Below, piece after piece: positions 35,350 through 58,024 of a DNA stretch of 64,000 nt. The stretch is from Lacibacter sp. H407. Its GTDB lineage: Bacteria > Bacteroidota > Bacteroidia > Chitinophagales > Chitinophagaceae. The notes under the pieces are model-generated. The model did not search any database and was not told the origin of the DNA. It worked only from the letters and a program-made list of their open reading frames with translations. Within the stretch, counting starts at the first letter, position 1; each line of letters opens with the position of its first letter. The position numbers and the translations under genes are program-made. The DNA lies in the NCBI RefSeq assembly GCF_037892605.1, contig NZ_JBBKTU010000001.1:4030001-4094000 (forward strand), written 5' to 3'.

Positions 35350-35391
35350 CTATTAACTCCATGAACCATCAACCATGAACTATGAACTCTC
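35350..35391. repeat. Heptamer tandem array a (AACCATG type)
   Basis: Six 7-bp units in a row (CTATTAA, CTCCATG, AACCATC, AACCATG, AACTATG, AACTCTC) running up to the stop codon of the ChaN-like gene. Degenerate but strictly 7-periodic. Confidence 0.75.
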
Positions 35392-36268
35392 AATACGTCG
35401 TGGTCATATCTTCATCTACACAAATAATATAATCGGCTTTAAACTTATGTTCGGCCAATAATGTATGGATGTCTTTCTGCAAAACAGTTGTTACCGTTGC
35501 GATCTTTAGTTCGGGATGTGCCTGTTTGAGATACCACACAATACCATCGTAATCAGCAGAGGCTTTGCCATCATGTTTATCGGAATGATAGCTGCCGTTG
35601 TAATGAATAAACAAACTACCGGGCACAAAATACTTCCACATAAAATGCGCCATGGTCGCATCTTTCGACGCCTGTGCCCGCACCATATTCATGGAGCCGT
35701 GACCGGCCATCATCGTCATCATGTTTTTGTATCCTGCCAATGTAGAATCAAACGAAAACGGCAATGGTGCGATCCATTTTTTCTCTGCATCGGGAAGTGT
35801 ATCCAATGCTGCAACGCCGGATTTGGAAACCAAAGCTGCATACCTGCGTGGAATATTCGTAGCTGCAAATGCGATGTTGTTTGTTTTTGCAAAATTGACG
35901 AGTGGTGCATAATCGGTTTTATAGTTGGGCCATAACCTTGCAGCTGAATCGAGTCCTTTGGCCGATAATTTCCCTTGCAGGTATTGATCAAGTGCGGCTT
36001 GATTATCCTGTTCAAACATTTCAGCGCCTAATATCAAATTGCGATGCTGCTTTGCATCTTTGGTGATTTCCAGTTGCAGCCAATGGCTGATGGGATTATT
36101 ATGAAACTCGCCAATAAGCACCATATCCTGTTTGATCAACTGCTTGAGCATACTGCCATAACTCACTTTCTTTCCCTTGGCATTGTATAACACATAGGCC
36201 GGTTTTTGTTGTGCTAAAAGAATTGAGCAGATAAAAACGAGTACGGTGGTAAAAAAGAGTTTCTGCAT
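35390..36268 (-). CDS. ChaN-like heme-binding/Tiki-superfamily protein
   Basis: A 292-aa exported protein (signal MQKLFFTTVLVFICSILLAQ) with the ChaN fold: VLIGEFHNNPISHWLQLE (conserved Glu/His pair), GAEMFEQDNQ, ATNIPRRYA and a late IHYNGSYHSDKHDG. Related ChaN binds heme, and the wider Tiki superfamily includes metalloproteases that use the GE-x-H and ExFxxxN residues. I infer a role in heme or iron handling at the envelope, but protease activity is equally possible. It stands alone. The heptamer array a touches its stop codon. Confidence 0.83.
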   Translation of the reverse strand: MQKLFFTTVLVFICSILLAQQKPAYVLYNAKGKKVSYGSMLKQLIKQDMVLIGEFHNNPISHWLQLEITKDAKQHRNLILGAEMFEQDNQAALDQYLQGKLSAKGLDSAARLWPNYKTDYAPLVNFAKTNNIAFAATNIPRRYAALVSKSGVAALDTLPDAEKKWIAPLPFSFDSTLAGYKNMMTMMAGHGSMNMVRAQASKDATMAHFMWKYFVPGSLFIHYNGSYHSDKHDGKASADYDGIVWYLKQAHPELKIATVTTVLQKDIHTLLAEHKFKADYIICVDEDMTTTY

Positions 36269-36442
36269 GTTGATTATTTAATGAAAAGTATTTCGGTAGA
36301 TGTATTGATTCGCAAAAAATTGAAAAATTATCTGCTTACTTCTCTCGCCATATTTTTACTTTGATGATAATGCTTCGTTGTACAGTCACCTTACAGGTGA
36401 ACAGACAACGGCATTCAAACTTTCATCACAAAAGATAATAGC

Positions 36443-36808
36443 TCAGGCTTCTCTTAATATCTTTTCCATTTTACGGCCTTTGGCCAACTCATCAACTAAC
36501 TTATCAAGATAGCGGGTCTGTTGTGTTAATGGATTTTGAATTTCTTCTACCCGATAACCACAGATAACCCCTGTAATAAGATGCGCATTGGCATGGAGCT
36601 TTGCCTGCTGAAAAAATTGTTCAAAAGTTACTTTTTCGTCAATTAGCTTCTGCAGCTTCTTTTCATTATATCCGGTAAGCCATTCAATTACCTGGTGCAG
36701 CTCTTCTTTTGTTCGTCCTTTCTTTTCCACCTTTGTAACATAATGAGGATATACCGATGCGAAGGTCATTTTTGCAATACGATCGTCATGATGAGCTGTG
36801 CTGTTCAT
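36443..36808 (-). CDS. DUF2200 domain protein
   Basis: A 121-aa cytoplasmic protein matching the whole DUF2200 family ([24 protein letters not shown] split by a conserved loop; [31 protein letters not shown]). Structures of the family show a compact alpha-helical fold, function unknown. It is the second gene of a pair with the DUF1801 protein 27 bp upstream. Confidence 0.85.
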
Positions 36809-36835
36809 GTTTGCTGTTTTAAGGTTTGCTGCAAT

Positions 36836-37228
36836 TTATTTCAATCGTTCCAGTTGTCCTTTCCGTTTTACGATATTTTTGTAATCCCATTGAATAGCGC
36901 TTGCTTTTTTCAGCCAACGCTTTAGTTGAGCCTCATCAATTTCGGAAACGTTGTTGTAGAAAACAGATGCGTCTTTAAATTTTTTGCCCACCACATTCAA
37001 ACCATCTTCTTCAAAAGAAGCACCACTCCAAAACATTAACCGGATACCCGGCTTTTGTTTACTGTACCCAACAATTGGATTGCCTTCCAAAAACCAAACC
37101 GGGTGGGCATGCCATACTTTACTTTCCGCTTCAGAAAGTTCACTGTCAATGATAGTTGCAAGACGGTTACAAATTACTTTGTCGGCAGCAGTTTGCTTGT
37201 TGTTGTATGATTTGATGTCGGTATGCAT
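36836..37228 (-). CDS. DUF1801 domain protein
   Basis: A 130-aa protein of the DUF1801/YdhG-like fold (VWHAHPVWFLEGNPIVGYSK; IRLMFWSGASFEEDGL). Family members resemble frataxin-like iron chaperones in fold, though the ligands are not clearly conserved here, so no iron role is claimed. It heads a pair with the DUF2200 gene. Both are frequent near one another in Bacteroidetes, by inference. Confidence 0.8.
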   Translation of the reverse strand: MHTDIKSYNNKQTAADKVICNRLATIIDSELSEAESKVWHAHPVWFLEGNPIVGYSKQKPGIRLMFWSGASFEEDGLNVVGKKFKDASVFYNNVSEIDEAQLKRWLKKASAIQWDYKNIVKRKGQLERLK

Positions 37229-37272
37229 TTGCGATGTTGTTTAGCTTTCATGTATAAATTTCATGGATGTCA

Positions 37273-37779
37273 CTAAAAAGTAATCAAACTTTTCAGAAAC
37301 CGCATCCGCTTTCGTTCATGCCGTATTCGTATCAGTCCGCCTAAAAAAAAGATAAGTCCGAATATTAAAAAATAACCTCCTTCACGCATTATCTCAACAC
37401 CATACCTTATACTAAGTCCTGTCCGAAAGTCTCCATCGATAAGCTTAAGAATCCCGGTCGCAATGGCAATAGCCCCAACAATAGGAAACAGGTATTGTAA
37501 AATCATCCAAAAATTAAACTCTTCGGGTTCTTTTCTATGAAAAAAGTATTCCCGAAGCTTGCCTTCATTTATCGCTTTAAGAATGTAGTCTTTTGTATCA
37601 TCAGACAATTCGTAATCCTTACTTTTTACTAAATGTCCGAGCATAAAAGCGATTTCCCTATCATTACTTGAGTATTTCTCAATATTTAAAAACACAGAAA
37701 ATAATACTTCATTGCTTGCAAACTCTTTTGATTTCATGAGTTTCTTAAAAAGTGGTTTGAAGTTATACTCGTCGAACAT
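37273..37779 (-). CDS. Hypothetical protein with two C-terminal membrane helices
   Basis: A 168-aa protein: an alpha-helical cytoplasmic part (residues 1-95, charged, rich in Lys/Glu), then helices at ~97-116 (MILQYLFPIVGAIAIATGIL) and ~133-150 (GYFLIFGLIFFLGGLI), and a basic tail. No family recognised. The N-terminal part could be a protein-interaction domain. It stands alone between the DUF1801 and permease genes. Confidence 0.6.
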   Translation of the reverse strand: MFDEYNFKPLFKKLMKSKEFASNEVLFSVFLNIEKYSSNDREIAFMLGHLVKSKDYELSDDTKDYILKAINEGKLREYFFHRKEPEEFNFWMILQYLFPIVGAIAIATGILKLIDGDFRTGLSIRYGVEIMREGGYFLIFGLIFFLGGLIRIRHERKRMRFLKSLITF

Positions 37780-37852
37780 CTTTAGATATTTGCAAAATTA
37801 CCTACGTTGAATAAAGTTTATATTGCTTCACTATAAAAACTACAGTCGGGCT

Positions 37853-37884
37853 TTCGTACCTCGTACTTCTTACCTCCTACTTCG
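37853..37884. repeat. Heptamer tandem array b (TTCGTAC type)
   Basis: TTCGTAC, CTCGTAC, TTCTTAC, CTCCTAC, TTCG, running right up to the stop codon of the permease gene at 37888. The unit is the reverse complement of GAAGTAC-type arrays at 52234 and 56573. Confidence 0.75.
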
Positions 37885-37887
37885 GCA

Positions 37888-39120
37888 TCACTCAAACCGC
37901 AGCGCCTTCACCGGACTCATCTTCCTCACCAACAACGAAGGAATAAATAAAATTAAAAAGCTTACGACAAATGTAACGACGTTGATGAGCACTACCTGCC
38001 ACCACAATACACGAATGGGTGCAGTAGAAACATAGTACGCAGCTTCATCCAGTTTAATAAAGCCTGTTGTTTGTTGCAGCCAGCAAATACCAAGACCCAA
38101 CACGGTGCCTAATGTTAATCCTACCAAAGTAATGATCAATGCCTGGTTCCAGAAAATCACCTGTACCTGCCCGTTAGTTGCACCGGTGGCTTTGAGCAAC
38201 CCTATCATACGAGAGCGTTCAAGTACAAGAATAATTAAGCAGGAAATTAAATTGATGACTGCTACAATACACATGATGATTAAGATCACCGTTTTATTGG
38301 TGCTTTGTAATGCCAGCCAATCGAAGATGTTCGGATAAATTTCACGCAGCGGTGTACTGAACCAAACAACAGGTAACTGATCGAGCAGTTGATTGTTGGT
38401 TTTGTAATCGGTGCGGTAATCTTTCAAGGTTATTTCATAACCCCCGATCTGTGTATTACTCCATCCGTTTAAACGCCGGATGAGATTCATATCAATGATC
38501 GCAAATGTTTTATCGTATTCCTCGATCCCTGTTTTATAAATACCGCTTACGGTAACAGGCCGCACACGGGGGGCCGTGCTGTTGTTATCAATAAAATAAA
38601 TAAGGATCCGGTCGCCCACTTTGGCATTGATCTGCTTGGCCGTGTACGTTGAAATAACGATCTCGTTGTTCTGTACACTATCGTCAAACGCCAGCCACTT
38701 TCCTTCCTGCATGAAAGGTTGTAACCGTTTGCTGGAAAATTGTTTGTCCACTCCTTTCAACAATACCCCTTCAATGGTTTCATTGGTTTTCAACATTGCC
38801 GATTTGGTTGCAAATGCATCCACCAGTTGCACATTGGGATGTGATTTGAGGATTTGATAAACCGAATCGTTTTGCTCCACCGGCAATTCTTCTGCCAAAC
38901 CCGAAGCTGACGATTGTTGCTGCTGTACCCGCAAGTGTCCCCAAAAGCTGAATACTTTGCTGCTGACGGTGTATTGAAAGCCTTCTACAAATGCAAAGGC
39001 CAGGATCATGACTGCTACACTGATGGCTGTGGCCACCGTTGACAAGCGGATGATGAACCTTGAAAAGGATTGATTCTTTTGAAAAACCAACCGGCGTGCT
39101 ATAAAGGAGGCAATGTTCAA
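37888..39120 (-). CDS. ABC transporter permease of the LolC/E/FtsX type
   Basis: A ~410-aa permease with one N-terminal helix (VATAISVAVMILAFAFVEGF), a large periplasmic domain and three C-terminal helices (VILIIMCIVAVINLISCLIIL; QALIITLVGLTLGTVLGLGI; VVLINVVTFVVSFLILF), ending with the FtsX-type tail RKMSPVKALRFE. I place the start at TTG 39120 (LNIASFIARRL). The upstream frame to 39243 runs through the inverted repeat at 39166-39230 and has no family match. Possible lipoprotein release or macrolide-type export. The ATPase partner is not adjacent. Confidence 0.83.
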   Translation of the reverse strand: MNIASFIARRLVFQKNQSFSRFIIRLSTVATAISVAVMILAFAFVEGFQYTVSSKVFSFWGHLRVQQQQSSASGLAEELPVEQNDSVYQILKSHPNVQLVDAFATKSAMLKTNETIEGVLLKGVDKQFSSKRLQPFMQEGKWLAFDDSVQNNEIVISTYTAKQINAKVGDRILIYFIDNNSTAPRVRPVTVSGIYKTGIEEYDKTFAIIDMNLIRRLNGWSNTQIGGYEITLKDYRTDYKTNNQLLDQLPVVWFSTPLREIYPNIFDWLALQSTNKTVILIIMCIVAVINLISCLIILVLERSRMIGLLKATGATNGQVQVIFWNQALIITLVGLTLGTVLGLGICWLQQTTGFIKLDEAAYYVSTAPIRVLWWQVVLINVVTFVVSFLILFIPSLLVRKMSPVKALRFE

Positions 39121-39165
39121 ATCTTTATCTTTGAAAGGTTGTAAAACTAATGGTTTCTGTGAATA

Positions 39166-39230
39166 AAGGTTGCCAACCTTGTATGGGGTTGCAGATTTTT
39201 TCAGCATTTTACAAGAAGGTTGGCAACCTT
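39166..39230. repeat. Large inverted repeat AAGGTTGCCAACCTT
   Basis: Arms 39166-39180 and 39216-39230 are exact 15-bp reverse complements (35-bp spacer), and each arm is itself nearly palindromic. It lies between the permease start and the T9SS plug gene, which diverge. The word recurs as GTTGCCAA at 18739. A REP-like palindrome is likely. Confidence 0.7.
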
Positions 39231-39297
39231 GCACAAAAAGCAACTATTTCCACTTGTTTTGAATCTCTGTAACGTCAGGTTATAAATAAACAGCATC

Positions 39298-40602
39298 ATG
39301 CACCAGATCAAACGCCTTTTTCCTTTTCTTGTTTCAGGTTTCTTTTTCTGCAGCACCGTTGCTGCACAGCAGGCCGATAAAATATACAAAAGCAATATCC
39401 GTTCGGTCAAGTTCCATGCAAAAGGCGATCAGCTGAGCTACCCCATTATGCGGTTGAACAGTAACGATCAGCTGGAGCTTCATTTTGATGATATGGATGC
39501 CGATGTAAAATATTATTCCTACACATTTGCACTTTGCAATGCCGACTGGACACCCGCCATGGTAAGTCAGTTCGATTATATGAAAGGATTTTCGAACGTA
39601 CGCATCAACACCTATCGCAATTCTTCGCTTGTACTTACCCGTTATACGCATTATACCTGCAACCTGCCCGACCGGAATACATCGCCCACCAAAAGCGGCA
39701 ATTATATTTTGAAAGTTTTTGTAAATGGCGATACATCGCAAGTGGCATTTACCAAGCGTTTTTTGGTGCTTGATACAAGAATTACTGCCGGCGCTACAGT
39801 AGTGCAGCCGTTCAATACGTTTATTGGTAAAACACATCAGAAATTACAGTTCAGCGTTAATGCACAAAACATTAAACCCACCAATATTTTTCAACAGATC
39901 AAAGTAGTGATTCTGCAGAACTATCGTTGGGATAATAGTATTACCAACCTTCAGCCAACATTTATCCGCCAGAATATTCTTGAATACAATACCGAAAACC
40001 AGGCATTGTTTCCGGCACAGAAAGAATGGCGATGGGTTGATCTTACAAGTTTCCGTTTACAAACCGATCGTGTAGAGAAAGGTGATTATACCAACACGGG
40101 ACAAACATTATACATAAAACCTGAAGGCGAACGGAAAGATCTGCGGTACATGTACTACCGGGATTTCAATGGCTTTTACCAGTTGATGAATATTGAACAG
40201 AACAATCCGTATTGGCAGGGCGATTATGCAACAGTATTGTTCCGCTATTCAACGCCCGATCGTTCAGCGATACCCAATAAAGATTTGTACATTTTTGGTG
40301 AGTTTACCAACTATGAATTAACGGATGCCAATCGCTTAATTTTTAATGAAGAAACAGGCATGTACGAAAACAAACAGATGTTGAAGCAAGCTTTGTACGA
40401 TTATATTTATGTAACGAAGGATAAAAAAACAAATGAGGTAAGCACCGAAGTAACAGAAGGCAACTGGTGGGAAGCAGAGAACACATACACCATTCTTGTG
40501 TATTACAAACCATTGGGCGGACGTGTTGATGAATTAGTTGGCATGATGCAGGTAAACTCGTTGGCAAACAGACCGAACTTTAATAACAACAGAATATTGT
40601 AA
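39298..40602 (+). CDS. Type IX secretion plug protein (DUF5103)
   Basis: A 434-aa exported protein (signal MHQIKRLFPFLVSGFFFCSTVAAQ). It matches DUF5103, now known as the T9SS plug family: KIYKSNIRSVKFHAKGDQLSYP, LHFDDMDADVKYYSYTFALCN, and the C-terminal YTILVYYKPLGGRVDELVG. In the SprA translocon structure the plug closes the periplasmic end of the channel. That fits with the T9SS sorting domains of the proteins at 60999 and 62031. It is divergent from the permease gene and followed by heptamer array c and the SRP RNA. Confidence 0.88.
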   Translation: MHQIKRLFPFLVSGFFFCSTVAAQQADKIYKSNIRSVKFHAKGDQLSYPIMRLNSNDQLELHFDDMDADVKYYSYTFALCNADWTPAMVSQFDYMKGFSNVRINTYRNSSLVLTRYTHYTCNLPDRNTSPTKSGNYILKVFVNGDTSQVAFTKRFLVLDTRITAGATVVQPFNTFIGKTHQKLQFSVNAQNIKPTNIFQQIKVVILQNYRWDNSITNLQPTFIRQNILEYNTENQALFPAQKEWRWVDLTSFRLQTDRVEKGDYTNTGQTLYIKPEGERKDLRYMYYRDFNGFYQLMNIEQNNPYWQGDYATVLFRYSTPDRSAIPNKDLYIFGEFTNYELTDANRLIFNEETGMYENKQMLKQALYDYIYVTKDKKTNEVSTEVTEGNWWEAENTYTILVYYKPLGGRVDELVGMMQVNSLANRPNFNNNRIL

Positions 40603-40666
40603 GAACAGAATCGGTTTACATTATCAACCGCCGTCAGGTTTTAAACTACTGACAGGGTTTTGAACA

Positions 40667-40705
40667 AACTTTAAAACTTTCAACTTTTCAACCTTCAACT
40701 TTTCC
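40667..40705. repeat. Heptamer tandem array c (CAACTTT type)
   Basis: Seven-base periodic pyrimidine-rich units (ACTTTAA, AACTTTC, AACTTTT, CAACCTT, CAACTTT) between the plug gene and the SRP RNA promoter. Confidence 0.65.
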
Positions 40706-40715
40706 CTCATTCCCC

Positions 40716-40723
40716 TATCTTTG
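40716..40723 (+). promoter_or_regulatory. -7 promoter element of the SRP RNA gene
   Basis: TATCTTTG exactly matches TAnnTTTG. The first base of the SRP RNA stem (40728) lies five bases further, where transcription should start. No clear TTG at -33, as heptamer array c occupies that place. Confidence 0.65.
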
Positions 40724-40727
40724 CGCC

Positions 40728-40822
40728 GGCAGGTCTTGCACGACCAGCTCCTGCTGAACTCCCCCAGGGTGGGAACGCAGCAAGGGTAAGCGGTTGTAGC
40801 GGTGCGATGTAAGTAACCTGCC
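40728..40822 (+). ncRNA. ffs: Signal recognition particle RNA (4.5S type)
   Basis: Small bacterial SRP RNA, partner of Ffh in targeting membrane proteins. The universal apical domain is unmistakable (CTGAACTCCCCCAGGG, then GGAACGCAGCAAGGGTA, with the GGAA tetraloop-like turn). The ends pair as GGCAGGT (40728-40734) and ACCTGCC (40816-40822). A poly-T tract (40824-40830) ends the transcript. Frames overlapping it on either strand are not genes. Confidence 0.95.
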
Positions 40823-40900
40823 ATTTTTTTCTTTTTCTGTTTGAAGATGCCCCTTTACAAACTGAGCATTTTTCATCTTCAAAACAACCAAACTTTTACA

Positions 40901-41554
40901 ATGAAATTTTTTATTGACACGGCCGACCTCGCCCAAATCAAAGAAGCCAATGAATTAGGAATTCTTGATGGCGTTACTACCAATCCTTCGTTAATGGCCA
41001 AAGTAGGCATTAAAGGAACCGATGCCATCATGCAGCATTACAAAACCATTTGCGAATTGGTGGATGGCGATATCAGTGCAGAAGTGATCAGCACCGATTT
41101 TGCAGGCATGGTTGAAGAAGGTAAAAAACTGGCTGCAATTCACCCAAACATTGTGGTGAAAGTGCCGATGATCAAAGATGGTATTAAAGCCTTAAAATAT
41201 TTTAGCGATAACGGTATTAAAACCAACTGTACGTTAGTATTCAGTGCGGGCCAGGCAATTCTTGCGGCAAAAGCAGGTGCTACATATGTATCTCCTTTTA
41301 TTGGCCGTATTGACGATGGCGGTTGGGATGGTATGGAGTTGATCGGTCAAATTGCTAATATCTACTCATTGCAGGGTTTTGAAACAGAAATTCTTGCCGC
41401 ATCGATCCGCACACCGTTGCACATTATCCAGGCAGCTGAATTAGGCGCAAATGTTTGTACCTGTCCGTTGAGTTCAATCCTTGGTTTGTTAAAACACCCG
41501 TTAACAGATATTGGCTTGGCGCAATTTTTAGAAGATGCAAAGAAGTTTCAATAA
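40901..41554 (+). CDS. fsa: Fructose-6-phosphate aldolase (transaldolase-like)
   Basis: A 217-aa single-domain aldolase (ATG 40901, [13 protein letters not shown]; the frame extends upstream into the SRP terminator region, which is not translated). The Schiff-base lysine is Lys87 in VVKVPM, with TTNPS (residues 26-30) and NCTLVFS also present. FSA/TalC enzymes interconvert fructose-6-phosphate with dihydroxyacetone and glyceraldehyde-3-phosphate. Many Bacteroidetes members are annotated as transaldolase, so pentose-phosphate use is equally likely. A 9-bp inverted repeat (40841-40849 with 40874-40882) lies in its leader. Own terminator follows. Confidence 0.9.
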
Positions 41555-41571
41555 GTAAACTCTTTATCCAC

Positions 41572-41602
41572 AAAAAGCTCCTGTAACCGGGAGCTTTTTT
41601 TT
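41572..41602 (+). terminator. fsa terminator
   Basis: Stem AAAAAGCTCC / GGAGCTTTTT around TGTAACCG, then a T8 run, 18 bp past the fsa stop. It also faces the convergent gene at 41627. Confidence 0.85.
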
Positions 41603-41626
41603 ATGCATTGTATAAACGAATGAATA

Positions 41627-42067
41627 CTACGCTGAAAGTTTTTCTACATCAAGCAATTCGTTATCCTTGTTTTCAATAAACTGTTTTCTGTAACGGGCAA
41701 CCTGTGTCCAATAAATAATCCAACAGATCAACGCTCCCAACCCGAAGAAGAAACCAATAACAGGCATTAGGCTTGCAATAGCCAGGAGTGCATAAATATT
41801 ACCGATATCTTTTGTTGGTGTTTGCTGCGTGTAGGTAATATTTAACCTGTCGCACTCCTGTTTTATGGAAGCCGCCAATTTATTGATCACTACAAACATC
41901 CAAATGAGATTAAAGAGTGGAATGAGTAGCAGCCATACCTGCGAAGGAACAATCCTTCTGTTTTGAATTGAAATTTGTTCTGCTGTTCGGTAAAGAGTCA
42001 ATACAAAAAAAATGTATGGTACAAGAAATGCCAGCAAAAAGGCTAACTGAATAAGTCCACCCATCAT
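41627..42067 (-). CDS. Small membrane protein, 146 aa
   Basis: Three membrane helices: ~4-26 (GLIQLAFLLAFLVPYIFFVLTL), ~44-64 (VWLLLIPLFNLIWMFVVINKL) and ~91-118 (YALLAIASLMPVIGFFFGLGALICW). The loop NRRIVPSQVW before the second helix is seen in other Bacteroidetes membrane proteins of unknown function. It is the last gene of a run with the sirtuin gene 9 bp upstream, so probably cotranscribed. No role proposed. Confidence 0.68.
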   Translation of the reverse strand: MMGGLIQLAFLLAFLVPYIFFVLTLYRTAEQISIQNRRIVPSQVWLLLIPLFNLIWMFVVINKLAASIKQECDRLNITYTQQTPTKDIGNIYALLAIASLMPVIGFFFGLGALICWIIYWTQVARYRKQFIENKDNELLDVEKLSA

Positions 42068-42076
42068 CGTTTAATT

Positions 42077-42769: not shown

Positions 42770-42791
42770 ACATCAAAAATAAAGAAAGAGT

Positions 42792-50111: not shown

Positions 50112-50122
50112 AAAAAAAAATG

Positions 50123-50206
50123 TGCCCACGAAAGGAATCGAACCTTCACATCCTTGCGAATGGCAGATTTTGAGTCTGCTGCGTCTACCAATTCCGCCAC
50201 ATGGGC
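50123..50206 (-). tRNA. tRNA-Leu (anticodon CAA)
   Basis: An 84-nt tRNA on the minus strand. Seven-bp acceptor stem (GCCCATG with CGTGGGC, one G-T), D-arm GGCGGAATTGGTAGAC, anticodon loop CTCAAAA giving CAA (decodes UUG), a long variable arm as in type II tRNAs and TΨC arm GGTTCGATTCC. The 3' CCA is not encoded. Frames spelling MAELVDAADSKSAIRK over it are the familiar antisense artefact. Confidence 0.95.
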
Positions 50207-50381
50207 ATGTGACTAATACTTTTTTAAGAACTCTTCCTCCGGCCCAAGCATTTTACGTAGAGGCAAAAGGCTTTCCTTTGGGGCTGCAATATTACAGAAT
50301 CTTTGCTTTCGTATGAAATTTTTTATGAGTTCGGGTTAGGTTTTTCTGAAATCTTATCTTGCGATCCCTTAAACGATTGGA

Positions 50382-51584
50382 ATGCTTACAATAGGACTTA
50401 TCAGAGAAGGAAAAATACCAGCCGATAACCGGGTAGCCCTCACTCCCTCACAATGCAAGTGGGTTCATAAGAATGCTGAGAATGTTAAGGTGATCGTTCA
50501 AACCTGTTCTTCCCGCTGTTTCAGCGATAAAGAGTACCGAGCTGCCGGTGTCGAAGTAAAAGAAGACTTGAGCGAATGCGATGTACTCTTTGGCATCAAA
50601 GAAGTGCCCGTTGATCAATTGATTCCCGGTAAAACTTACCTTTTCTTTTCGCATACTAAAAAGGCGCAGGCAAACAATCAAAAACTGATGCGGGCGATGG
50701 TTGAGAAAAACATTACCCTCATCGATTATGAATGTTTAACCCACGACGACGGTCAACGCATTATTGGCTTCGGATTTTTTGCAGGCATTGTTGGGGCACA
50801 CAATGGCATGATGGCTTTCGGTACTCGCACAGGTGCATTCCATTTGGGACGTGTGGGCGATGTACGGGATTACCGCCAACTGATCCATACCTATTTTGGA
50901 TTGAAGCTTCCAAAAATTAAGATCGCTATTACCGGCAGTGGTCGTGTGGCGCATGGCTTATTGGAGATCATGAACCTGCTCGGCGTTAACGAAGTGGAAC
51001 CGTTCGATTATTTACATCGCCAATATGAATACCCGGTGTATGTGCATTTGAAAGGTCGAGACTTGTATGAACGCAAAGACGATGGTACCTACAACCGTGA
51101 CAACTTTCATGAACATCCGGAAGAATACAAATGCAGCTTCTCTCCTTTCGTAAAGCAGACAGATATTTTATTGAATGGGGTGTACTGGGATAAAACCATT
51201 CCCTCCTTATTTACACTGGATGAATTCCGTAATCCTTCCTTTAAAATTCAAACCATTGCTGATGTTACTAACGATACCGGAGGTTCTATCCCGATCAATA
51301 TCGGCGACTCAACAATTCAAGATCCGGTGTATGGGGTTGATAAGACCACATTGCAAAAAACAGCGCCTTATTTGCCCACTTCTGTTGATGTGATGGCGGT
51401 TGCGAATTTGCCGAATGAATTACCTCGTGATGCATCCCGTTATTTTGGTGAGCAATTGATCAAGTATGTACTGGAAGATCTGGCAAAAGGTGGTTCTGCA
51501 ATTCTTGAACGGGCAACTATGTTGAAGAAAGGCGTGTTAACGGAAGAGTATGACTATTTGAAAGAGTACGCTGCTGTGAAATAA
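50382..51584 (+). CDS. Saccharopine dehydrogenase-like NAD(P)-dependent oxidoreductase
   Basis: A 400-aa two-domain dehydrogenase resembling lysine-forming saccharopine dehydrogenase (LYS1) and alanine dehydrogenase: MLTIGLIREGKIPADNRVAL, FSHTKKAQANN, FGFFAGIVGAHNG and the nucleotide loop ITGSGRVAHG (residues ~185-195). Bacteria normally make lysine by another route, so the enzyme may act on a different opine-like compound or in lysine breakdown. It is transcribed alone after a TATCTTGC -7-like box at ~50355, and heptamer array d follows it. Confidence 0.83.
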   Translation: MLTIGLIREGKIPADNRVALTPSQCKWVHKNAENVKVIVQTCSSRCFSDKEYRAAGVEVKEDLSECDVLFGIKEVPVDQLIPGKTYLFFSHTKKAQANNQKLMRAMVEKNITLIDYECLTHDDGQRIIGFGFFAGIVGAHNGMMAFGTRTGAFHLGRVGDVRDYRQLIHTYFGLKLPKIKIAITGSGRVAHGLLEIMNLLGVNEVEPFDYLHRQYEYPVYVHLKGRDLYERKDDGTYNRDNFHEHPEEYKCSFSPFVKQTDILLNGVYWDKTIPSLFTLDEFRNPSFKIQTIADVTNDTGGSIPINIGDSTIQDPVYGVDKTTLQKTAPYLPTSVDVMAVANLPNELPRDASRYFGEQLIKYVLEDLAKGGSAILERATMLKKGVLTEEYDYLKEYAAVK

Positions 51585-51585
51585 T

Positions 51586-51613
51586 ATACGATGTTAGATT
51601 TACGATGTGCGTC
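51586..51613. repeat. Heptamer tandem array d (ATACGAT type)
   Basis: ATACGAT, GTTAGAT, TTACGAT, GTGCGTC directly after the dehydrogenase stop. It reaches the stop codon of trmN6 on the other strand, so both genes end within two bases of it. Confidence 0.7.
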
Positions 51614-52373
51614 ATAAATACAAATAGTAATCCTTCAATAAACTCACAAATTCATTTGTGTATTGATTGTTTTCATCCTTGATCGAAAATTCTGGAAATG
51701 ATGGCTCTGTTTTCTCTCTGCTGAACATTAATATCGACCGGAAAAACCCATGCCTTACCGTTTGTTTTACCTGCACATGCGTTTGAAGATGAAGATCGAC
51801 TCCTTTCGCCAATTCGATCATTCGCTCTGCACGCACATAAGGAAGCAATACAGCAAAGTTTCCGTCTGCAGTTAAATTAGCATCAACAACTGTTATTAAT
51901 TCATCCAGCTTCAATCCCTCATCATGCATCGCTACATTTCGGTTGGCAGCATTTGATTTTAAATCGCCTTCATAAAATGGCGGATTGGAAATAATAAGAT
52001 CATACTTTTTTGAAAAATTGAATTGCTTAACATCAGCATGAAACAATTGCAGTCGTTCCTTCCATTGGGAGGCTTCAATATTCTCTTTTGCTTGCTGATA
52101 AGATGGTTCATCAATTTCAATTCCATCGATCAATGCATCGCATTTCTGTGCAAGCATTAACATCAGTAATCCTGTTCCGGCACCAATATCAAGTATAGTG
52201 AGTGGTGAATGGTGAGTAGCTAGTAAGTTGTCCGCACTTCGTACCTCGTACTTCATACTTCTTACTTCTGCCGCTACCCACGCTCCAAACAAGCAACTGT
52301 CAGTACTTACTTTCAATGCAGCTTTCTCTTGCTGCACGGTAAATTGTTTGAATTGAAAATAGTTGTTGGGCAT
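51612..52373 (-). CDS. trmN6: tRNA1(Val) adenine-37 N6-methyltransferase TrmN6, with repeat-derived insert
   Basis: A 253-aa Rossmann-fold adenine methyltransferase (YfiC family) that methylates A37 of tRNA1-Val. FQFKQFTVQQEKAALKVSTDSCLFGAW opens the family fold; motif I is LDIGAGTGLLMLMLAQ; the catalytic motif IV is NPPFY. Between GAW and LDIGAG, where E. coli has about 9 residues, this protein has about 28, including EVRSMKY EVRSADN: a protein-level 7-residue repeat made by heptamer DNA array e. The methylation core is intact, so the insert is probably a tolerated surface loop. Confidence 0.87.
   Translation of the reverse strand: MPNNYFQFKQFTVQQEKAALKVSTDSCLFGAWVAAEVRSMKYEVRSADNLLATHHSPLTILDIGAGTGLLMLMLAQKCDALIDGIEIDEPSYQQAKENIEASQWKERLQLFHADVKQFNFSKKYDLIISNPPFYEGDLKSNAANRNVAMHDEGLKLDELITVVDANLTADGNFAVLLPYVRAERMIELAKGVDLHLQTHVQVKQTVRHGFFRSILMFSREKTEPSFPEFSIKDENNQYTNEFVSLLKDYYLYL
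52196..52268. repeat. Heptamer tandem array e, inside trmN6
   Basis: Five GAAGTAC-type units (plus strand GCACTTC, GTACCTC, GTACTTC, ATACTTC, TTACTTC, 52234-52268) next to five TGGTGAG-type units (52196-52230), with a 3-base phase slip. Fully inside an open frame and encoding a 7-residue repeat. Confidence 0.8.
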
Positions 52374-52376
52374 TAT

Positions 52377-52433
52377 GAATGAGTGATGAGTATTGGCTTA
52401 CAACCAATGGCTATCGGCTAAAGGCTGATGATG
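52377..52433. repeat. Heptamer tandem array f (GGCTATC type)
   Basis: Units TGATGAG, TATTGGC, TTACAAC, CAATGGC, TATCGGC, TAAAGGC, TGATGAT between the trmN6 start and the tsaD stop codon. Confidence 0.7.
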
Positions 52434-53474
52434 TTACCATTCCGCTCTTGCACTTGGGTTTACACTCAACGATGTAAAGTCATTTGCCAGGTATTTATAA
52501 TAACCCGTCATTGCAATCATACCGGCATTGTCTGTACAATATTCAAACGAAGGGATATATGTTTTCCAACCATGCTTCGCTCCCATTTCTGTAAAGGCTT
52601 TTCGTAAACCACTGTTGGCACTTACTCCACCAGCCAGACAAATTTGTGTGATGCCTGTTTGCTTGGATGCTTTCTTCAGCTTGTTGAGTAGTATCGAAAC
52701 AATACGTTGTTGCACCGAAGCACAAATATCATTCAGGTTATCAGCAATAAATTGTTTTTGCTCTTCCTCCGTTTTTAAAAATTCTTCTTTGTAAACAAGA
52801 CTTGTACCTGCATTACGCAGGAAATATAGAATGGATGTTTTCAATCCACTGAAACTAAAGTTGAGATCAGGAATTTGCGGCTCAGGAAATTTAAACCGAT
52901 CGGGATTGCCAAGTTGGGCATATTTATCAATGAGCGGACCACCAGGATATGGAAGTCCGAGCAGCTTTGCTGTTTTATCAAACGCTTCACCCGCAGCATC
53001 GTCAATTGTTTCGCCAAGTACTTTCATTTGAGTTGCAGTTTCGCACAAAACAATTTGTGTGTGACCGCCGCTTACCGTTAAACAAAGAAAAGGAAACGAA
53101 GGTTTTTGTTCTGCAATCAAATTAGCAATTACATGCGCCTGCATATGATGCACAGCGATCAACGGAATATCCAACGCTAACGAAAGTGATTTGGCAAATT
53201 GTGTTCCTACCAGTAGAGAACCAATCAATCCGGGAGCTTGCGTAAACGCAACAGCATTCAATTCTTTTTGTTCAACGCCTGCTTTCTTCAGGGCTTCATC
53301 AACAACCGGCACAATATTCTGCATGTGTGCCCTGCTGGCCAATTCCGGCACAACACCCCCATATTGTTCATGCACAGCTTGTGTAGCAATGATGTTGGAA
53401 AGGATCACACCGTCCCGACAAACGGAAGCGGAGGTTTCATCGCAGGAAGATTCGATAGCAAGAATAGTAACCAA
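52434..53474 (-). CDS. tsaD: tRNA N6-adenosine threonylcarbamoyltransferase TsaD
   Basis: A 346-aa universal ASKHA-fold enzyme that transfers the threonylcarbamoyl group to A37 of ANN-decoding tRNAs with TsaB and TsaE. It starts MVTILAIESSCDETSASV and has the metal motif HHMQAH, the nucleotide loops VSGGHTQI and CLAGGVSANSGLR, and the C-terminal DNAGMIAMTGYYKY. No defect is visible. TsaB/TsaE are not in the window. Heptamer arrays flank it on both sides (f and g). Secure call. Confidence 0.96.
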   Translation of the reverse strand: MVTILAIESSCDETSASVCRDGVILSNIIATQAVHEQYGGVVPELASRAHMQNIVPVVDEALKKAGVEQKELNAVAFTQAPGLIGSLLVGTQFAKSLSLALDIPLIAVHHMQAHVIANLIAEQKPSFPFLCLTVSGGHTQIVLCETATQMKVLGETIDDAAGEAFDKTAKLLGLPYPGGPLIDKYAQLGNPDRFKFPEPQIPDLNFSFSGLKTSILYFLRNAGTSLVYKEEFLKTEEEQKQFIADNLNDICASVQQRIVSILLNKLKKASKQTGITQICLAGGVSANSGLRKAFTEMGAKHGWKTYIPSFEYCTDNAGMIAMTGYYKYLANDFTSLSVNPSARAEW

Positions 53475-53476
53475 AA

Positions 53477-53519
53477 GGAAAATGAAAAATTAAAAATGAA
53501 AAATTAAGAATGTAAAAAT
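53477..53519. repeat. Heptamer tandem array g (AAAATGA type)
   Basis: AAAATGA, AAAATTA, AAAATGA, AAAATTA, AGAATGT in the tsaD leader, starting at the tsaD start side. Confidence 0.7.
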
Positions 53520-53530
53520 ACAGCAACCTG

Positions 53531-53563
53531 CCTAATTCATCATTCATTACTCTTCACTCATTT
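53531..53563. repeat. Heptamer tandem array h (CATTCAT type)
   Basis: AATTCAT, CATTCAT, TACTCTT, CACTCAT ending at the stop codon of the permease gene (53562). Arrays g and h fill the gap between tsaD and the permease. Confidence 0.7.
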
Positions 53564-54809
53564 ATTTGCTCCGTATTGCTACCACCGGATCCATTTTCGC
53601 TGCAATAAAAGCTGGAATAATACCTGCAAGAATTCCGGTGAAAATACAAACGCCTACAGCACCAAGAAATAGTCCCATGGAAATAAATACCTGAAACTTA
53701 AATACGCTGGTTAGTATAAAGGTCAGTCCGAATACTAATGCCAATCCTATGATTCCACCCAGTACACAGAGAAAGGCACTCTCCATTAAAAATTCAGCAA
53801 GTATGGTCCTGCGTTTTGCACCAATCGCTTTCTTCAATCCGATGATACTGGTACGCTCCCGAACAGTTACAAACATAATATTGGCTACACCAAAAATGCC
53901 CACAATAAACGACAGGATGGTGATTGCTATTCCCCCGATCGTCATTCCACTAAAAATTGAACTGATCTGTGTAGCACCGCTGCTGACATCATTCAGTGCA
54001 AAATTATCTTCCTGTTTTGGATTCAGTTTCCGTACACTACGCATTACGCCACGCAACTCATTCTTCAGATCTTCAACCGGTACATTTTCTTTTCCCTTTA
54101 CGATCATGAACCCATCGCTACGGTTTTCATTCCCGATCTGGCTTGCAAAACGGTAAGGGATCATAATTACATTATCAAAGTCCCATCCACCGAGCAGGTT
54201 TTGTCCCTGCTTTTTAATAATTCCGATCACATTTACTTTACGGCCTTTAATGGAAACCGCTTTACCCAAGGCATATTCTGCTTTCTCAAATAGCTTTTCT
54301 GCTACATTGTACCCCATCACCACACTCGCAGTACCGTATGCAAATTCATTGGACGAAAGATAACGTCCCCAGCCGATCTCAATGGGTTGTATTACGCTGA
54401 ACTCTTCCGTAATACCATACCAACTTACACTTGCAAGCGATACATCGTTATAGTCGATACTTGATGCATTAAAATAGGTATAGGCCACATTGCTGGCCAG
54501 CGACATCCGTTCTTTTACGGGTGCCATTTCTTTGAATTTGCTGTTAGGCCTGTTCACATACTTCCACCAGGGATATTCTCCGCCACCGCCCCACGGCCAT
54601 TTTTGTACATAAATGGTATTGTTACCGAACGTTTTGAATTCGTTTTTAATGCTGCTTTCCAAACTACCCACCGTTGCCATAACACTGATGATACAGAAAA
54701 TACCAAAGGTGATACCCAGCAAGCTTAAAAACGTACGCAGTTTATTTTTACGCAATTCCTGCACAGCAAATAAGAGGCTGTTCCAGAAAATTTCAAAGGT
54801 TTTACGCAT
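53562..54809 (-). CDS. ABC transporter permease, MacB-like (FtsX fold)
   Basis: A 415-aa permease. The N-terminal helix (LRTFLSLLGITFGIFCIISVMA) is followed by a ~240-residue MacB periplasmic domain and three helices ending with an AKMDPVVAIR tail, the typical MacB/FtsX layout. It would work with an ATPase and an outer-membrane partner to expel substrates or perform mechanotransmission. Neither partner is in the window. It is convergent in position with tsaD (same strand) and divergent from prfC. Confidence 0.87.
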   Translation of the reverse strand: MRKTFEIFWNSLLFAVQELRKNKLRTFLSLLGITFGIFCIISVMATVGSLESSIKNEFKTFGNNTIYVQKWPWGGGGEYPWWKYVNRPNSKFKEMAPVKERMSLASNVAYTYFNASSIDYNDVSLASVSWYGITEEFSVIQPIEIGWGRYLSSNEFAYGTASVVMGYNVAEKLFEKAEYALGKAVSIKGRKVNVIGIIKKQGQNLLGGWDFDNVIMIPYRFASQIGNENRSDGFMIVKGKENVPVEDLKNELRGVMRSVRKLNPKQEDNFALNDVSSGATQISSIFSGMTIGGIAITILSFIVGIFGVANIMFVTVRERTSIIGLKKAIGAKRRTILAEFLMESAFLCVLGGIIGLALVFGLTFILTSVFKFQVFISMGLFLGAVGVCIFTGILAGIIPAFIAAKMDPVVAIRSK

Positions 54810-54876
54810 GCGTCAAATTTAAACTGAAAAGCTGAACCGGAGGGAAAATTATTACGAATGGAAGGCACTGGAGGCT

Positions 54877-54884
54877 TACCTTTG
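54877..54884 (+). promoter_or_regulatory. -7 promoter element of prfC
   Basis: TACCTTTG matches TAnnTTTG exactly. Transcription would start near 54890 and run through heptamer array i before the start codon. Confidence 0.5.
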
Positions 54885-54902
54885 CGGGCTTAAAAAGGCC
54901 GA

Positions 54903-54970
54903 TAGTTTATAGTTAATAGTTCATAGCCAACCACAAATACTATTAACCATGACCTATGAACCATGAACTT
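54903..54970. repeat. Heptamer tandem array i (AACCATG type), reaching the prfC start
   Basis: TAGTTTA, TAGTTAA, TAGTTCA, TAGCCAA, then AACCATG, ACCTATG, AACCATG, AACTTCG. The ATG at 54963 belongs to one of these units, so the annotated start lies inside the repeat. Confidence 0.75.
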
Positions 54971-56567
54971 CGAAATGAAATTTACAAACGAAATTAATCG
55001 CCGCCGCACATTTGCCATCATCTCTCACCCCGATGCCGGTAAAACCACATTAACGGAAAAGTTATTGTTGTTTGGTGGCGCTATACAGGTGGCGGGTGCT
55101 GTAAAAAGCAATAAGATCAAGAAACATGCAACGAGTGATTTTATGGAGATCGAACGGCAACGTGGTATCTCTGTTGCTACATCGGTAATGACGTTTGAAT
55201 ACAACGGAACGCTCATCAACCTCCTCGATACACCGGGTCACAAAGATTTTGCAGAAGATACGTACCGCACCTTAACGGCTGTTGACAGTGTAATACTGGT
55301 GATCGATAGTGTGAATGGTGTGGAAGATCAAACACGCCGCTTAATGGAAGTGTGTCGCATGCGTGATACACCGGTGATCGTGTTTGTTAACAAAATGGAT
55401 CGTGACGGAAAGAATCGTTTTGACTTATTAGAAGAAGTGGAAAAAGAACTCAGCCTGCATCTCCACCCCATGACCTGGCCCATCAACAGCGGTAAAGATT
55501 TTAAAGGGGTATATGACTTAGATAAAAAATCGCTGGTACTGTTTACTGCCAACACAAAAGCAAGTGATGAGGATGTTGTAAAGATCAACGATCTCAGCGA
55601 TTCGATCCTTGATCAGAAAGTTGGTGATATTGATGCAAACATGTTGCGTGAAGATGTGGAACTGGTAGATGGTGTATATGGTGATTTGAATATCAATGAA
55701 TACCTGAAAGGAAAAGTGGCACCCGTATTCTTTGGCAGTGCCGTAAATAATTTTGGTGTAAGGGAAATGCTTGACACATTTATACGCATTGCACCTTTGC
55801 CACAAAGCAGGGAAACATCAACCCGCCATTTAGATGTGCAGGAAGATAAATTCAGTGGTTTTATTTTTAAAATTCACGCCAACCTTGATCCGAAGCACAG
55901 GGACCGTATTGCCTTCCTTCGTGTATGCAGCGGACGGTTTGAACGTAACAAATATTATCATCACGTCCGGTTAGATAAGGATGTACGTTTCAGTAATCCT
56001 TATTCGTTCATGGCCCGACAGAAAGATGTAATTGAAGAAGCTTATCCCGGCGATGTGGTGGGTTTGTTTGATACAGGTAATTTTAAAATCGGCGATACGT
56101 TGACGGAAGGTGAAAATTTTTACTTCACCGGCATTCCTTCTTTCTCACCTGAGTTGTTTAAAGAAGTGGTGAACAAAGATCCGATGAAGACGAAGCAACT
56201 GGAAAAAGGTTTGTTGCAATTGACCGATGAAGGTGTTGCACAGTTGTTCACACAGTTTGGTGGAAATAAAAAGATCATTGGTTGTGTGGGCGAACTGCAG
56301 TTTGAAGTAATTCAATATCGTTTGTTGCAGGAATATGGCGCCAGTGCAGAGTTCAGAGCCATGCCTTATTACAAAGCCTGCTGGATCACCAGTAAAGATC
56401 AAAAGAAACTGGACGAGTTCACCCGTTTTAAAACCAATAATATTGCAGCCGATAAAGACGGGCACCTGGTTTATCTGGCACAAAGTGAATGGTTCTTAAA
56501 TACCGAGCGACAAAATAATCCTGATATTGAATTTCACTTTACGAGTGAGATACATAAAGAAGGATGA
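54963..56567 (+). CDS. prfC: Peptide chain release factor 3 (RF3)
   Basis: A 534-aa GTPase that recycles RF1/RF2 from the ribosome after termination. G1 is HPDAGKTT (residues ~23-30), G3 is DTPGHKDF, G4 is NKMDRDG, and the RF3-specific [14 protein letters not shown] follows G1. The reading frame is intact and ends with the family's [10 protein letters not shown] tail. The start at 54963 (MNFEMKF) falls inside heptamer array i, so ATG 54975 ([11 protein letters not shown]) is an equally good or better start. Promoter at 54877. Confidence 0.95.
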
Positions 56568-56572
56568 AGAGA

Positions 56573-56636
56573 AGTACGAGGCACGAAGTAGAAAGTACAA
56601 AGTTGAAAGTACGAAGTTGGAAGTGCGAGGGCCGCC
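56573..56636. repeat. Heptamer tandem array j (GAAGTAC type)
   Basis: About eight units (GAAGTAC, GAGGCAC, GAAGTAG, AAAGTAC, AAAGTTG, AAAGTAC, GAAGTTG, GAAGTGC) directly after the prfC stop. It is the longest array in the window. Confidence 0.8.
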
Positions 56637-56721
56637 CCCGCCACTTCTTAATTGCAGATTATAGAGCTGTCTGCTGACAGGCTGGTTTGTGATTTCAGTT
56701 TAAAATAAGCAGAAATTGGTC

Positions 56722-57222
56722 ATGATACTTTTCGAATCAGAACGCTTATACGTGCAACCTTATACAAAGGAGGATGAAGCTATTTTCTTTGCGTTGAATG
56801 GTGATGCTGAGATCATGCAGTATATACGAGAGCCAAAGACAAGAGAACAAAGCGATGCGTTTCTTGAAGAAAATCTGAAATTTTATACCGATCATCCCGG
56901 ACTTGGACGCTTTGCCGTGTTTACAAAAGATGACAATCGTTTCGCCGGTTCATTTTCATTACTCTCCATCAACAACAGCGATCATATTCATTTGGGTTAT
57001 GCATTGCTGAAACCTTTTCATGGTAAAGGATTAGCAACTGAATTGGTAATGGCTTCATTTGATTATGTGTTCCGTACTATTCCAAATGAAAAAGTGCATG
57101 CGTTAACCGTTGCAGAAAATATCGGCTCGCAGAAAGTGTTGTTGAAATGCGGTTTTGTATTTAAAGAAAACATGCAACACGAGGGCGATGAGGTAATGGT
57201 ATTTGAGATAAGCAAGAGATGA
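56722..57222 (+). CDS. GNAT acetyltransferase, RimJ/RimL type
   Basis: A 166-aa acetyltransferase (ATG 56722, MILFESERLYVQPYT; a TTG at 56716 is less likely). The RimJ/RimL family shape is clear: ERLYVQPYTKEDEAIFF, LGYALLKPFHGKGLATELV (acetyl-CoA loop HGKGLA) and AENIGSQKVLLKCGF. Members acetylate ribosomal N-termini or small amines. The substrate here is unknown. It lies between two heptamer arrays. Confidence 0.85.
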   Translation: MILFESERLYVQPYTKEDEAIFFALNGDAEIMQYIREPKTREQSDAFLEENLKFYTDHPGLGRFAVFTKDDNRFAGSFSLLSINNSDHIHLGYALLKPFHGKGLATELVMASFDYVFRTIPNEKVHALTVAENIGSQKVLLKCGFVFKENMQHEGDEVMVFEISKR

Positions 57223-57250
57223 GCGTTTAGCTGTGAGCTTAGAGCCGTCC
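57221..57250. repeat. Heptamer tandem array k (GAGCTTA type)
   Basis: GAGCGTT, TAGCTGT, GAGCTTA, GAGCCGT starting within the stop codon of the GNAT gene. Confidence 0.65.
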
Positions 57251-57407
57251 AATCTACCGTGTTCCCATCCTGAAAAGAATGACAGCATCTTTGGCAAAGT
57301 TCAATAAATTACTGCTGTACAAGTGTGCGACGCAACAGCAGTTCAATCGTATTCAACTGCCGGTTACAAACTAAAAACTATAAATTAGGTGCAGGATCAA
57401 TCAAGAG

Positions 57408-57923
57408 TTAAACCTTCCCTATCTTCTCCATCATCTTCTCCACCAACTTATAAGTGGCAGGGCAATATTCCACATTTTGTTTGTACACATGCACCCACTC
57501 TGTAAAATTCTTTTTGGTGTGATGTGGAAATGTAGCACAGTCAACAGGACGTATTTCGTAAATAGAGCACTTGTTATCTTTTAAGTTGAGGAACTGGCAA
57601 GGTTGCTTCTTGTTCATCATATCACCCGTGCTGCGTTCTTTGTACAACCACTTTTCAGTAAACTCTTCGGGTGTTTGATCGAAGTGTGCAGAGATGCGTT
57701 TGATGTCCTGCTTGGTAAACGTAGGTGTCATGGTTTTGCAGCAGTTGGCGCAAGCCAAACAATCTGTTTCGGCCCATACTTCTTTATCCATTTCCTTTGC
57801 TATTTTATCAACGCCTTTCGGTTTCACTGTTTCCAAACGGGTAAGAAAATAACGAAAACGGCGACGGTTCGTATTCATTAAACGCTTAAAGAAAGGAAGG
57901 TGCATGGGCTTCGACGACTGCAT
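57408..57923 (-). CDS. YkgJ-family cysteine-cluster protein
   Basis: A 171-aa cytoplasmic protein with the YkgJ (CxCxxCC-type) pattern: CLACANCCKTM, then PCQFL, NKCSIYEIRPVDCATFP and a late YCPATY. The conserved cysteines are thought to hold iron-sulfur or zinc. Function is unknown. The start at 57923 (MQSSKPMHLPFF) is chosen. The frame further upstream passes through heptamer array l and is not credible. It is divergent from xerD. Confidence 0.83.
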   Translation of the reverse strand: MQSSKPMHLPFFKRLMNTNRRRFRYFLTRLETVKPKGVDKIAKEMDKEVWAETDCLACANCCKTMTPTFTKQDIKRISAHFDQTPEEFTEKWLYKERSTGDMMNKKQPCQFLNLKDNKCSIYEIRPVDCATFPHHTKKNFTEWVHVYKQNVEYCPATYKLVEKMMEKIGKV

Positions 57924-57957
57924 ACAGGGATTGATTAGTAAGCAGCGAATATAATGA

Positions 57958-58024
57958 GCAATTGGATATGAACAATAAGCATTTGGCAATAGCAATAGTG
58001 AATTGGCATTGGACAATGGCCAAT
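57958..58024. repeat. Heptamer tandem array l (GCAATAG type)
   Basis: About nine units (GCAATTG, GATATGA, ACAATAA, GCATTTG, GCAATAG, CAATAGT, GAATTGG, CATTGGA, CAATGGC) in the divergent gap between the YkgJ and xerD genes. It creates false open-frame extensions of both. Confidence 0.75.

Follow-up and report, generated by a model that had tools for sequence, protein, structure and literature searches.

Tandem repeats with a unit of seven nucleotides are known from cyanobacteria under the name STRR. Rickettsia palindromic elements (RPE), REP and MITE sequences are short palindromic spacer DNA, RPE also occurring in frame in protein genes. The observation that heptanucleotide repeats are in excess in prokaryotes, together with the idea of polymerase slippage in 7-nt steps, is credited to Mrazek et al. 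(2007) in the available parts of PMC4679880 and PMC4692102. Direct repeats of the heptamer TAACTGA were described in Beggiatoaceae, cyanobacteria and five Bacteroidetes, with other heptamer repeats occupying the same gaps of G. forsetii, A. sublithincola and E. anophelis (PMC4679880, available part). Thus both the excess of heptanucleotides in prokaryotes and the occurrence of heptamer assemblages in Bacteroidetes other than Lacibacter have already been reported. Here we describe degenerate heptanucleotide arrays in Lacibacter sp. H407 (Chitinophagaceae), starting from a stretch of 64,000 nucleotides of its 4.87-Mb genome, hereafter the window (contig NZ_JBBKTU010000001.1, positions 4,030,001 to 4,094,000; G000:C1:4030001-4094000). 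Three observations go beyond plain heptamer repeats: orthologous spacers and loops carry different units, some arrays lie in frame in housekeeping genes, and degenerate units with 26% mismatch are kept in register.

A preliminary description of the window had listed twelve period-7 arrays. We scored arrays by a strict period-7 autocorrelation, with third-order Markov shuffles of the window or 400 local shuffles per array as null. As a family, the arrays exceed chance: the window has five period-7 segments, compared to 0.13 on average and at most 1 in 30 shuffles. When taken one by one, six of the twelve are strong, two are borderline and four are weak. Among the 27 rows reported by Tandem Repeats Finder (TRF) for the window, ten have period 7, each starting at or beyond 35359, and none of the eight rows in the first 35 kb has this period. 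In 481 gaps of the same genome, for which 2 of the 40 underlying regions had been picked for a pattern match, 51 period-7 segments reached a score of at least 10 against 2.6 expected. The multiples 14 (23 against 2.2) and 21 (16 against 1.9) were raised as well, and no other period between 4 and 22 exceeded 7 segments; 31 of the gaps contain an array with a score of at least 11. The arrays thus show the excess of 7 nt over shuffles and over other periods that is expected of heptanucleotide simple sequence repeats.

Eighteen evenly spaced 20-kb samples of the genome yielded 15 arrays with a score of at least 11, or about 0.83 per 20 kb, and a larger set of 1.66 Mb, partly selected for GTACGAR matches, contained 90 arrays in gaps and 37 inside open reading frames (ORFs). 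Gene models were mechanical longest ORFs, for which distances on the start side are uncertain and those on the stop side are sound. Some of the 37 arrays are lysine-rich, lie in doubtful ORFs or precede the likely start, and our conclusions on coding arrays rest on those supported by domains or orthologs. The sequence GTACGARGTACGARGTACG has 105 partly overlapping matches with at most 3 mismatches in the genome, compared to 3 for the reversed pattern. In agreement with the preliminary description, no array with a score of at least 10 was found in the first 35 kb of the window (5264 non-coding bases, compared to 2324 at 35-58.1 kb). At the genome-wide rate, an empty stretch of this length has a probability of 0.23. 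Between 35 and 58 kb, 7 arrays were found where 0.96 were expected, and the probability of at least 7 in 23.1 kb is 7e-5 in this post hoc comparison. It is the density at 35-58 kb that is local, while the arrays themselves are genome-wide.

Arrays of the H407 genome comprise 5.4 units on average, and neighbouring units mismatch at 26% of their positions, so that the near-perfect unit characteristic of simple sequence repeats was not observed in this genome. Across 93 arrays, which were selected for lag 7, similarity fell from 0.73 at lag 7 to 0.67, 0.62 and 0.51 at lags 14, 21 and 28, with about 0.26 off register. Such a decay with distance inside the arrays is as local duplication predicts. 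This analysis of lags and columns covered arrays of at least 28 bases and, like the analyses of unit classes, shared 14-mers and unit palindromes given below, arrays in which no single base exceeds 62%. By eye, some arrays switch their unit in register, for example L038:3533-3603, where AACTATT is followed by GGCTATC and then by CACTCAC. Four-base palindromes are not in excess in the units of H407 (0.357 against 0.341) and in some excess (0.655 against 0.463) in G055, a genome from another genus of the family. In gaps of 40-400 bp, 30 arrays lay at a median distance of 4 bp from a gene border, whereas random placement gave 19 bp (mechanical ORF starts may extend into arrays). The preliminary description had located nearly all arrays next to stop codons. 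They do abut gene borders, but these are starts as well as stops, and in the window one array lies in a coding sequence and one upstream of a signal recognition particle (SRP) RNA gene, and the gene at 54963-56567 has one in its leader.

Complementary gap ends with a score of at least 12 were found in 20% of 59 array gaps of H407 and in 4.5% of permuted pairs, and in G055 in 34% of 32 array gaps against 9.4%. Inverted-repeat ends are thereby enriched, but only in a minority of array gaps, and gaps without arrays also exceed their permuted pairs (6.6% against 0.6%), perhaps owing to terminators. Co-evolution of the two arms was considered and rejected, as values within and between species did not differ (7.2 and 7.3; 6 array sets, crude half-gap split). 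A separate structure was seen in G055 at L191:5001-5720, where a gap of 689 bp holds about seven tandem copies of a unit of about 80 bp. Every copy contains a heptad run resembling GTACGAR, and the series is followed by a heptad array in inverted orientation.

The places of the arrays outlast their sequences. Our genus search comprised 14 genomes, including H407, and the species compared were 79-85% identical to the window over aligned parts of the region, with more distant ones in addition. A relative carries an array in 13 of 25 orthologous gaps in which the window has one, compared to 4 of 34 in which the window has none (p 0.001), indicating that the position persists while the units change. 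Orthologous places show gain, loss and unit switching (comparisons of switching were read by eye), with a change in unit number at one locus.

Two loci illustrate this. The minus-strand gene at 51612..52373 has the Pfam domain MTS (PF05175) and presumably encodes a TrmN6-like methyltransferase; according to the ortholog alignment, the loop preceding its S-adenosylmethionine-binding motif contains in-frame arrays. One of them, at 52233..52269 (score 20), consists of TTCGTAC units and encodes VRSMKYEVRS on the minus strand. TTCGTAC units (plus strand) are present in this loop in the window, G196, L. cauensis and L. luteus, whereas AAAGTTG units (coding strand) occupy it in G160 and two Chitinophagaceae metagenome-assembled genomes (L076, L077), and L078 and L079 have no array. 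The adjoining array at 52198..52232 (GGTGAAT/AGTGAGT, score 11, strong) recurs in G196 and L. cauensis, partially in L. luteus, and is missing in G160. The second locus is the leader of the gene at 54963-56567, which we take to encode release factor 3. In the window, it contains a left arm of ATAGTTA units at 54902..54926 (score 14, strong) and, inverted relative to it, a right arm of AACCATG units at 54939..54968 (score 11). Four species have arms of the AACTATG type, and G196, L076 and L077 have units of the AGCTTGC type. The minimum-energy fold is a hairpin in all nine orthologous 75-base stretches, with z <= -2 in five of them. This hairpin leader (54902-54968) is a single case: a general role of arrays as RNA hairpins was dropped, because co-directional array gaps (n = 19) had a median z of -0.92, compared to -0.89 for 50 other gaps.

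Some arrays inside proteins lie in linkers. In MutL, the array covers residues 180-190 of the translated part, between Pfam domains ending at 107 and starting at 211; Lnt has two arrays (188-203 and 231-237), flanked by domains of which the first ends at 181 and the next starts at 248; and a 2Fe-2S reductase has its array at 250-262, with Pfam domain borders at 227 and 281 on either side. Units also differ here between members of the genus, as read by eye: the Lnt linker has GTACGAT units, compared to AAATCCC in G204, and a loop of a protein that we take to be LipB has CACTCAC in H407 (G000), G199 and L. luteus, AAATTCC/AATTCCC in G160 and G196, and no array in G200, G204 and G205. A single 7-nt step in such an in-frame array of a housekeeping protein is a frameshift. 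Linker peptides such as EVRSTKYE should be recognized by annotators as repeat-derived and not as conserved domains. A GldD-type lipoprotein, whose GldD domain begins at residue 43, has a signal-peptide-like start (VLLTSYFLLL) that is encoded in part by a TTCGTAC array at L171:13206-13238. The heptad arrays at L030:3401-3427 and L165:14130-14170 are translated solely because the mechanical ORF runs upstream of the likely start, and automatic annotation may misplace starts at these two sites.

The remaining arrays of the window are distributed as follows. The first, at 35359..35393 (AACCATG/AACTATG, score 18, strong), is situated downstream of the stop codon that ends gene 35390-36268 on the minus strand, and the array at 37854..37883 (TTCGTAC/TTCTTAC, score 13, strong), which has look-alikes of about 29-43 bp elsewhere in the H407 and related genomes, immediately follows the stop of gene 37888-39243, which is also on the minus strand. 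The array at 40667..40704 is borderline (score 10, p 0.025) and mixes units of 7 and 8 bp (AACTTTC, AACTTTTC), TRF favouring mixed periods of 7, 8 and 15; it is located upstream of TAnnTTTG at 40716, which we take to be a promoter motif, and of the small SRP RNA gene at 40720..40827 on the plus strand (Rfam RF04183, 95.1 bits). Within 40667-40720, the array stops just short of TAnnTTTG, and L. cauensis, L. luteus, UBA1931 and G197 have different CT-rich heptads there (TTTTTCA type). Two arrays face each other at 53473..53511 (AAAATGA/AAAATTA, score 20, p 0.02, strong; also period 14, with a TRF score of 66) and 53531..53562 (ATTCATC/ACTCATT, score 10, p 0.0025, borderline). At the place of the latter, L. 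luteus has an array of score 14 and L. cauensis has TTTTTCA-type units. The array at 56571..56628 (GAAGTAC, GAAGTTG and AAAGTAC; score 19, strong), which comes after the stop of a gene whose end is at 56567, has a counterpart in G196, while the gaps of G160, L. cauensis and L. luteus contain other sequence. In these three genomes, the stretch corresponding to 56560-56720 has an inverted pair of the type GGTCGGTAC...GTCAGACC, and GTCTGACGG stretches resembling this pair recur in other gaps and may be a second repeat family.

For each of the four weak arrays, one or more relatives, though not all, have an array with a score of 11-16 in the orthologous gap. The ATACGAT-like array at 51586..51612 is not significant on its own (score 5, p 0.21), and its gap has an array of score 13 in G160 and none in G196 and L. 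cauensis. In the gap preceding the methyltransferase gene, at 52377..52430, there are two weak arrays, ATGAGTG (score 6, p 0.08) and, in its right half, GGCTATC (score 7, p 0.015), with orthologs scoring 14 in G196 and 16 in L. luteus; the L. cauensis stretch matching 52365-52440 is 491 bp long, by eye partly coding, and without array. A GAGCTTA-like array at 57210..57245 (score 8, p 0.01; the 57221 array of the preliminary description) corresponds to ACAAGGC-type units in G160 and G196, the latter with score 11, and a GGCAATA-like array at 57950..58020 (score 8, p 0.03; formerly 57958) to arrays of score 11-13 in both.

With at most one mismatch, the GTACGAR pattern was found in 23 of 195 genomes and 16 of 101 genera of the family, and the reversed pattern had one match overall. 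Elsewhere in the class, 4 of 194 genomes had matches, close to the 3 of 198 seen with the reversed pattern as control; nonetheless, G263 has 10 places. Array density differs widely: G055 has 77 gap arrays in 200 kb, G196 has 5 in 100 kb and G106 none in 100 kb. H407 and G055 have 24% of unit classes in common, whereas 300 letter shuffles gave 8.7% on average and 23.7% at most. The exact 20-base GTACGAR pattern occurs in 2 of 2.9 million viral contigs.

We tentatively regard the arrays as a single genome-wide population of degenerate heptanucleotide 'spacer satellites' that are largely neutral heptad DNA, growing and shrinking in 7-base steps where a change in length is tolerated, a joint reading that we consider plausible but not quite probable. 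Slipped-strand synthesis would add or remove the 7-base steps, and such stepping would keep the length a multiple of 7 while the sequence drifts. The complementary ends in a minority of array gaps would come from fold-back or template switching, and segments would at times be copied between loci. Of every 1000 array pairs, 52 share a 14-mer within G055 and 12.8 within H407, more than the 4.0 between these two genomes of different genera; between H407 and G202 of the same genus the value is 17.3, inflated by pairs at orthologous places. Persistence would only require that the sites tolerate length change, so that no specific job is necessary; a function of the arrays is possible. The step size, the persistent position, the decay of similarity with lag and the location in protein linkers fit this account.

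Several observations weigh against neutral growth and loss, and our confidence is limited because four of them, the near-absence of perfect copies, the recurrence of AGTACGA, the strand polarity and the ordinary stability of arrays between G202 and G203, do not follow from it. Slippage yields perfect copies, yet perfect runs of at least 3 copies have only 2 start positions in the 1.66 Mb of H407; G055 is nearer to perfect, with a neighbour mismatch of 19% and 72 start positions of perfect three-copy runs in 0.2 Mb. AGTACGA is the leading unit in both genera, which local slippage from random seeds would not produce. In co-directional gaps of H407, 52 of 64 arrays have an AG-rich sense strand after stops and a CT-rich one before starts, a polarity that neutral DNA need not show. 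Mismatches are clustered in columns, with a variance of 1.21 compared to 0.65, a pattern that would result from a constrained motif or from copy history. The 14-mer sharing of 12.8 per 1000 pairs within H407 is raised by the choice of regions, which were partly selected for GTACGAR matches. For the AAAGTTG array of G160, no second copy within 3 mismatches was found in that genome, and in a scan that included coding DNA, periods 12 and 15 were increased too (8 and 14 segments with a score of at least 13, against 0 and 0 in one shuffle). In G202 and G203, the closest pair compared, 42 of 76 queried places were comparable, 7 with arrays and 35 others. Length had changed in equal shares of them (4 of 7 and 20 of 35), the median aligned identity was 0.83 at array places and 0.86 at the others, and the net differences at the four array places that changed were 4, 23, 27 and 143. 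A greater lability of arrays than of other spacers was thus not shown in this pair. Likewise, L076 and L077, which are 95.5% identical in coding sequence, have no indel in 64 array bases. Changes of -14 and +7 were found at one array locus of G202/G203, the sole place with multiples of 7 inside the alignment, and one of the seven array places was unchanged. Between L226 and L227, identity is 93.9% in coding, 82% in non-coding and 56% in array sequence, a difference from one locus with 91 array bases that is not borne out by G202/G203.

In a rival reading, for which the polarity speaks, the arrays are selected cis-regulatory sequences. A protein or RNA whose footprint is 7 nt would bind at multiple sites of an array in leaders and at 3' ends, a role that was proposed for the TAACTGA repeats in Beggiatoaceae (PMC4679880, available part). 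Edge windows of H407 show the polarity as well (92 of 120 in array gaps and 630 of 1089 in other gaps), about 3.1 of 7 columns per array are invariant, compared to 2.5 under random mismatches, the positions persist across orthologs, and the hairpin in the leader of the gene at 54963-56567 is retained despite differing units. However, congeners differ in their units, arrays also occur within coding loops, and co-directional array gaps fold no better than others. The polarity was not seen in convergent (4 of 10) or divergent (8 of 13) gaps of H407 and did not reach significance in G055 (arrays 41 of 68, p 0.08; edge windows 45 of 59 against 59 of 91, p 0.15), and we consider a regulatory origin unlikely. 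We give similarly little credence to the possibility that the arrays are decayed arms of small palindromic mobile elements of the REP, MITE or Rickettsia-palindromic-element type, which a transposase would mobilize in trans and in which the heptad would belong to the arm. The complementary gap ends point in this direction, as do the in-frame sites in housekeeping genes and the 143-bp difference between G202 and G203, which includes an inverted-arm stretch (arms read by eye). A weak link exists to Y1 transposases, with PF01797 in 21 of 23 GTACGAR-positive genomes of the family and in 122 of 172 others (p 0.04), but G160 and G052 match the pattern and have no PF01797 match, at odds with a REP/RAYT transposase system. 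In addition, the unit varies from site to site, array-free gaps exceed permuted complementarity too, and in orthologous gaps, where no systematic test was made, no common element body, terminal sequence or target-site duplication was noticed by eye.

Chance or low-complexity composition could account for some A+T-rich arrays (AAAATGA) and for the four listed arrays that are unconvincing alone. For the population it is refuted and retains hardly any probability, given the counts over shuffles in the window (5 against 0.13) and in the gaps (51 against 2.6), the similarity at lag 7 over that off register in arrays selected for this lag, and the genome-wide pattern matches over the reversed pattern. 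A further-reaching version of 7-base stepping would be a single dedicated process, working in steps of 7 nt, that writes much of the spacer DNA of some Chitinophagaceae. It would place degenerate heptad arrays at gene borders and in protein linkers, often as inverted arms, and keep rewriting their sequence at fixed sites, so that the class is defined by period and position and not by letters; we think this improbable. With regard to why bacteria favour 7-nt repeats, Lacibacter and the denser G055 offer many parallel arrays in which step size, copying between loci and protein tolerance could be measured.

The preliminary description knew of no account from Chitinophagaceae, and among the papers listed in our searches of the open-licence literature we likewise found none of degenerate, unit-switching arrays in this family or in protein linkers; however, heptamer assemblages in other Bacteroidetes are described (PMC4679880, available part). 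The arrays are set apart from RPE, REP and MITE by the lack of unit conservation and of a clear transposase link, and no defined element body was noticed. In common with the long simple sequence repeats of Mrazek et al. (2007), they show a 7-nt excess, for which polymerase slippage was proposed, as credited in the sources cited above; in Lacibacter, neighbouring units mismatch at 26% of positions and some arrays lie in protein linkers. The TAACTGA repeats, as far as PMC4679880 is available, likewise have a 7-nt unit, are mostly intergenic near gene starts and stops, occur sporadically across species and may be absent from the gaps of relatives, but they have one defined exact unit, in contrast to many degenerate units that differ between orthologs in Lacibacter; TAACTGA direct repeats were absent from the 1.66 Mb of H407 and from 0.2 Mb of G055. 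The GGGAATC and GGGGA(C/T)T repeats of Xanthomonas and Nostoc are heptamers that, in two related species, mostly lie between the same genes and vary in length and sequence, with mention of inverted repeats, but unlike the Lacibacter arrays they are G-rich, potentially quadruplex-forming and of a single unit class (PMC4692102, available part). The resemblance to cyanobacterial STRR suggested in the preliminary description holds for the unit length of 7 and for the dispersal of heptamer tandem repeats in one genome. It does not extend to the units themselves, which are few and fixed in STRR, with three heptanucleotides in Calothrix (PMC4692102, available part), and which in Lacibacter are many, degenerate, drifting and in some cases translated in frame within proteins.

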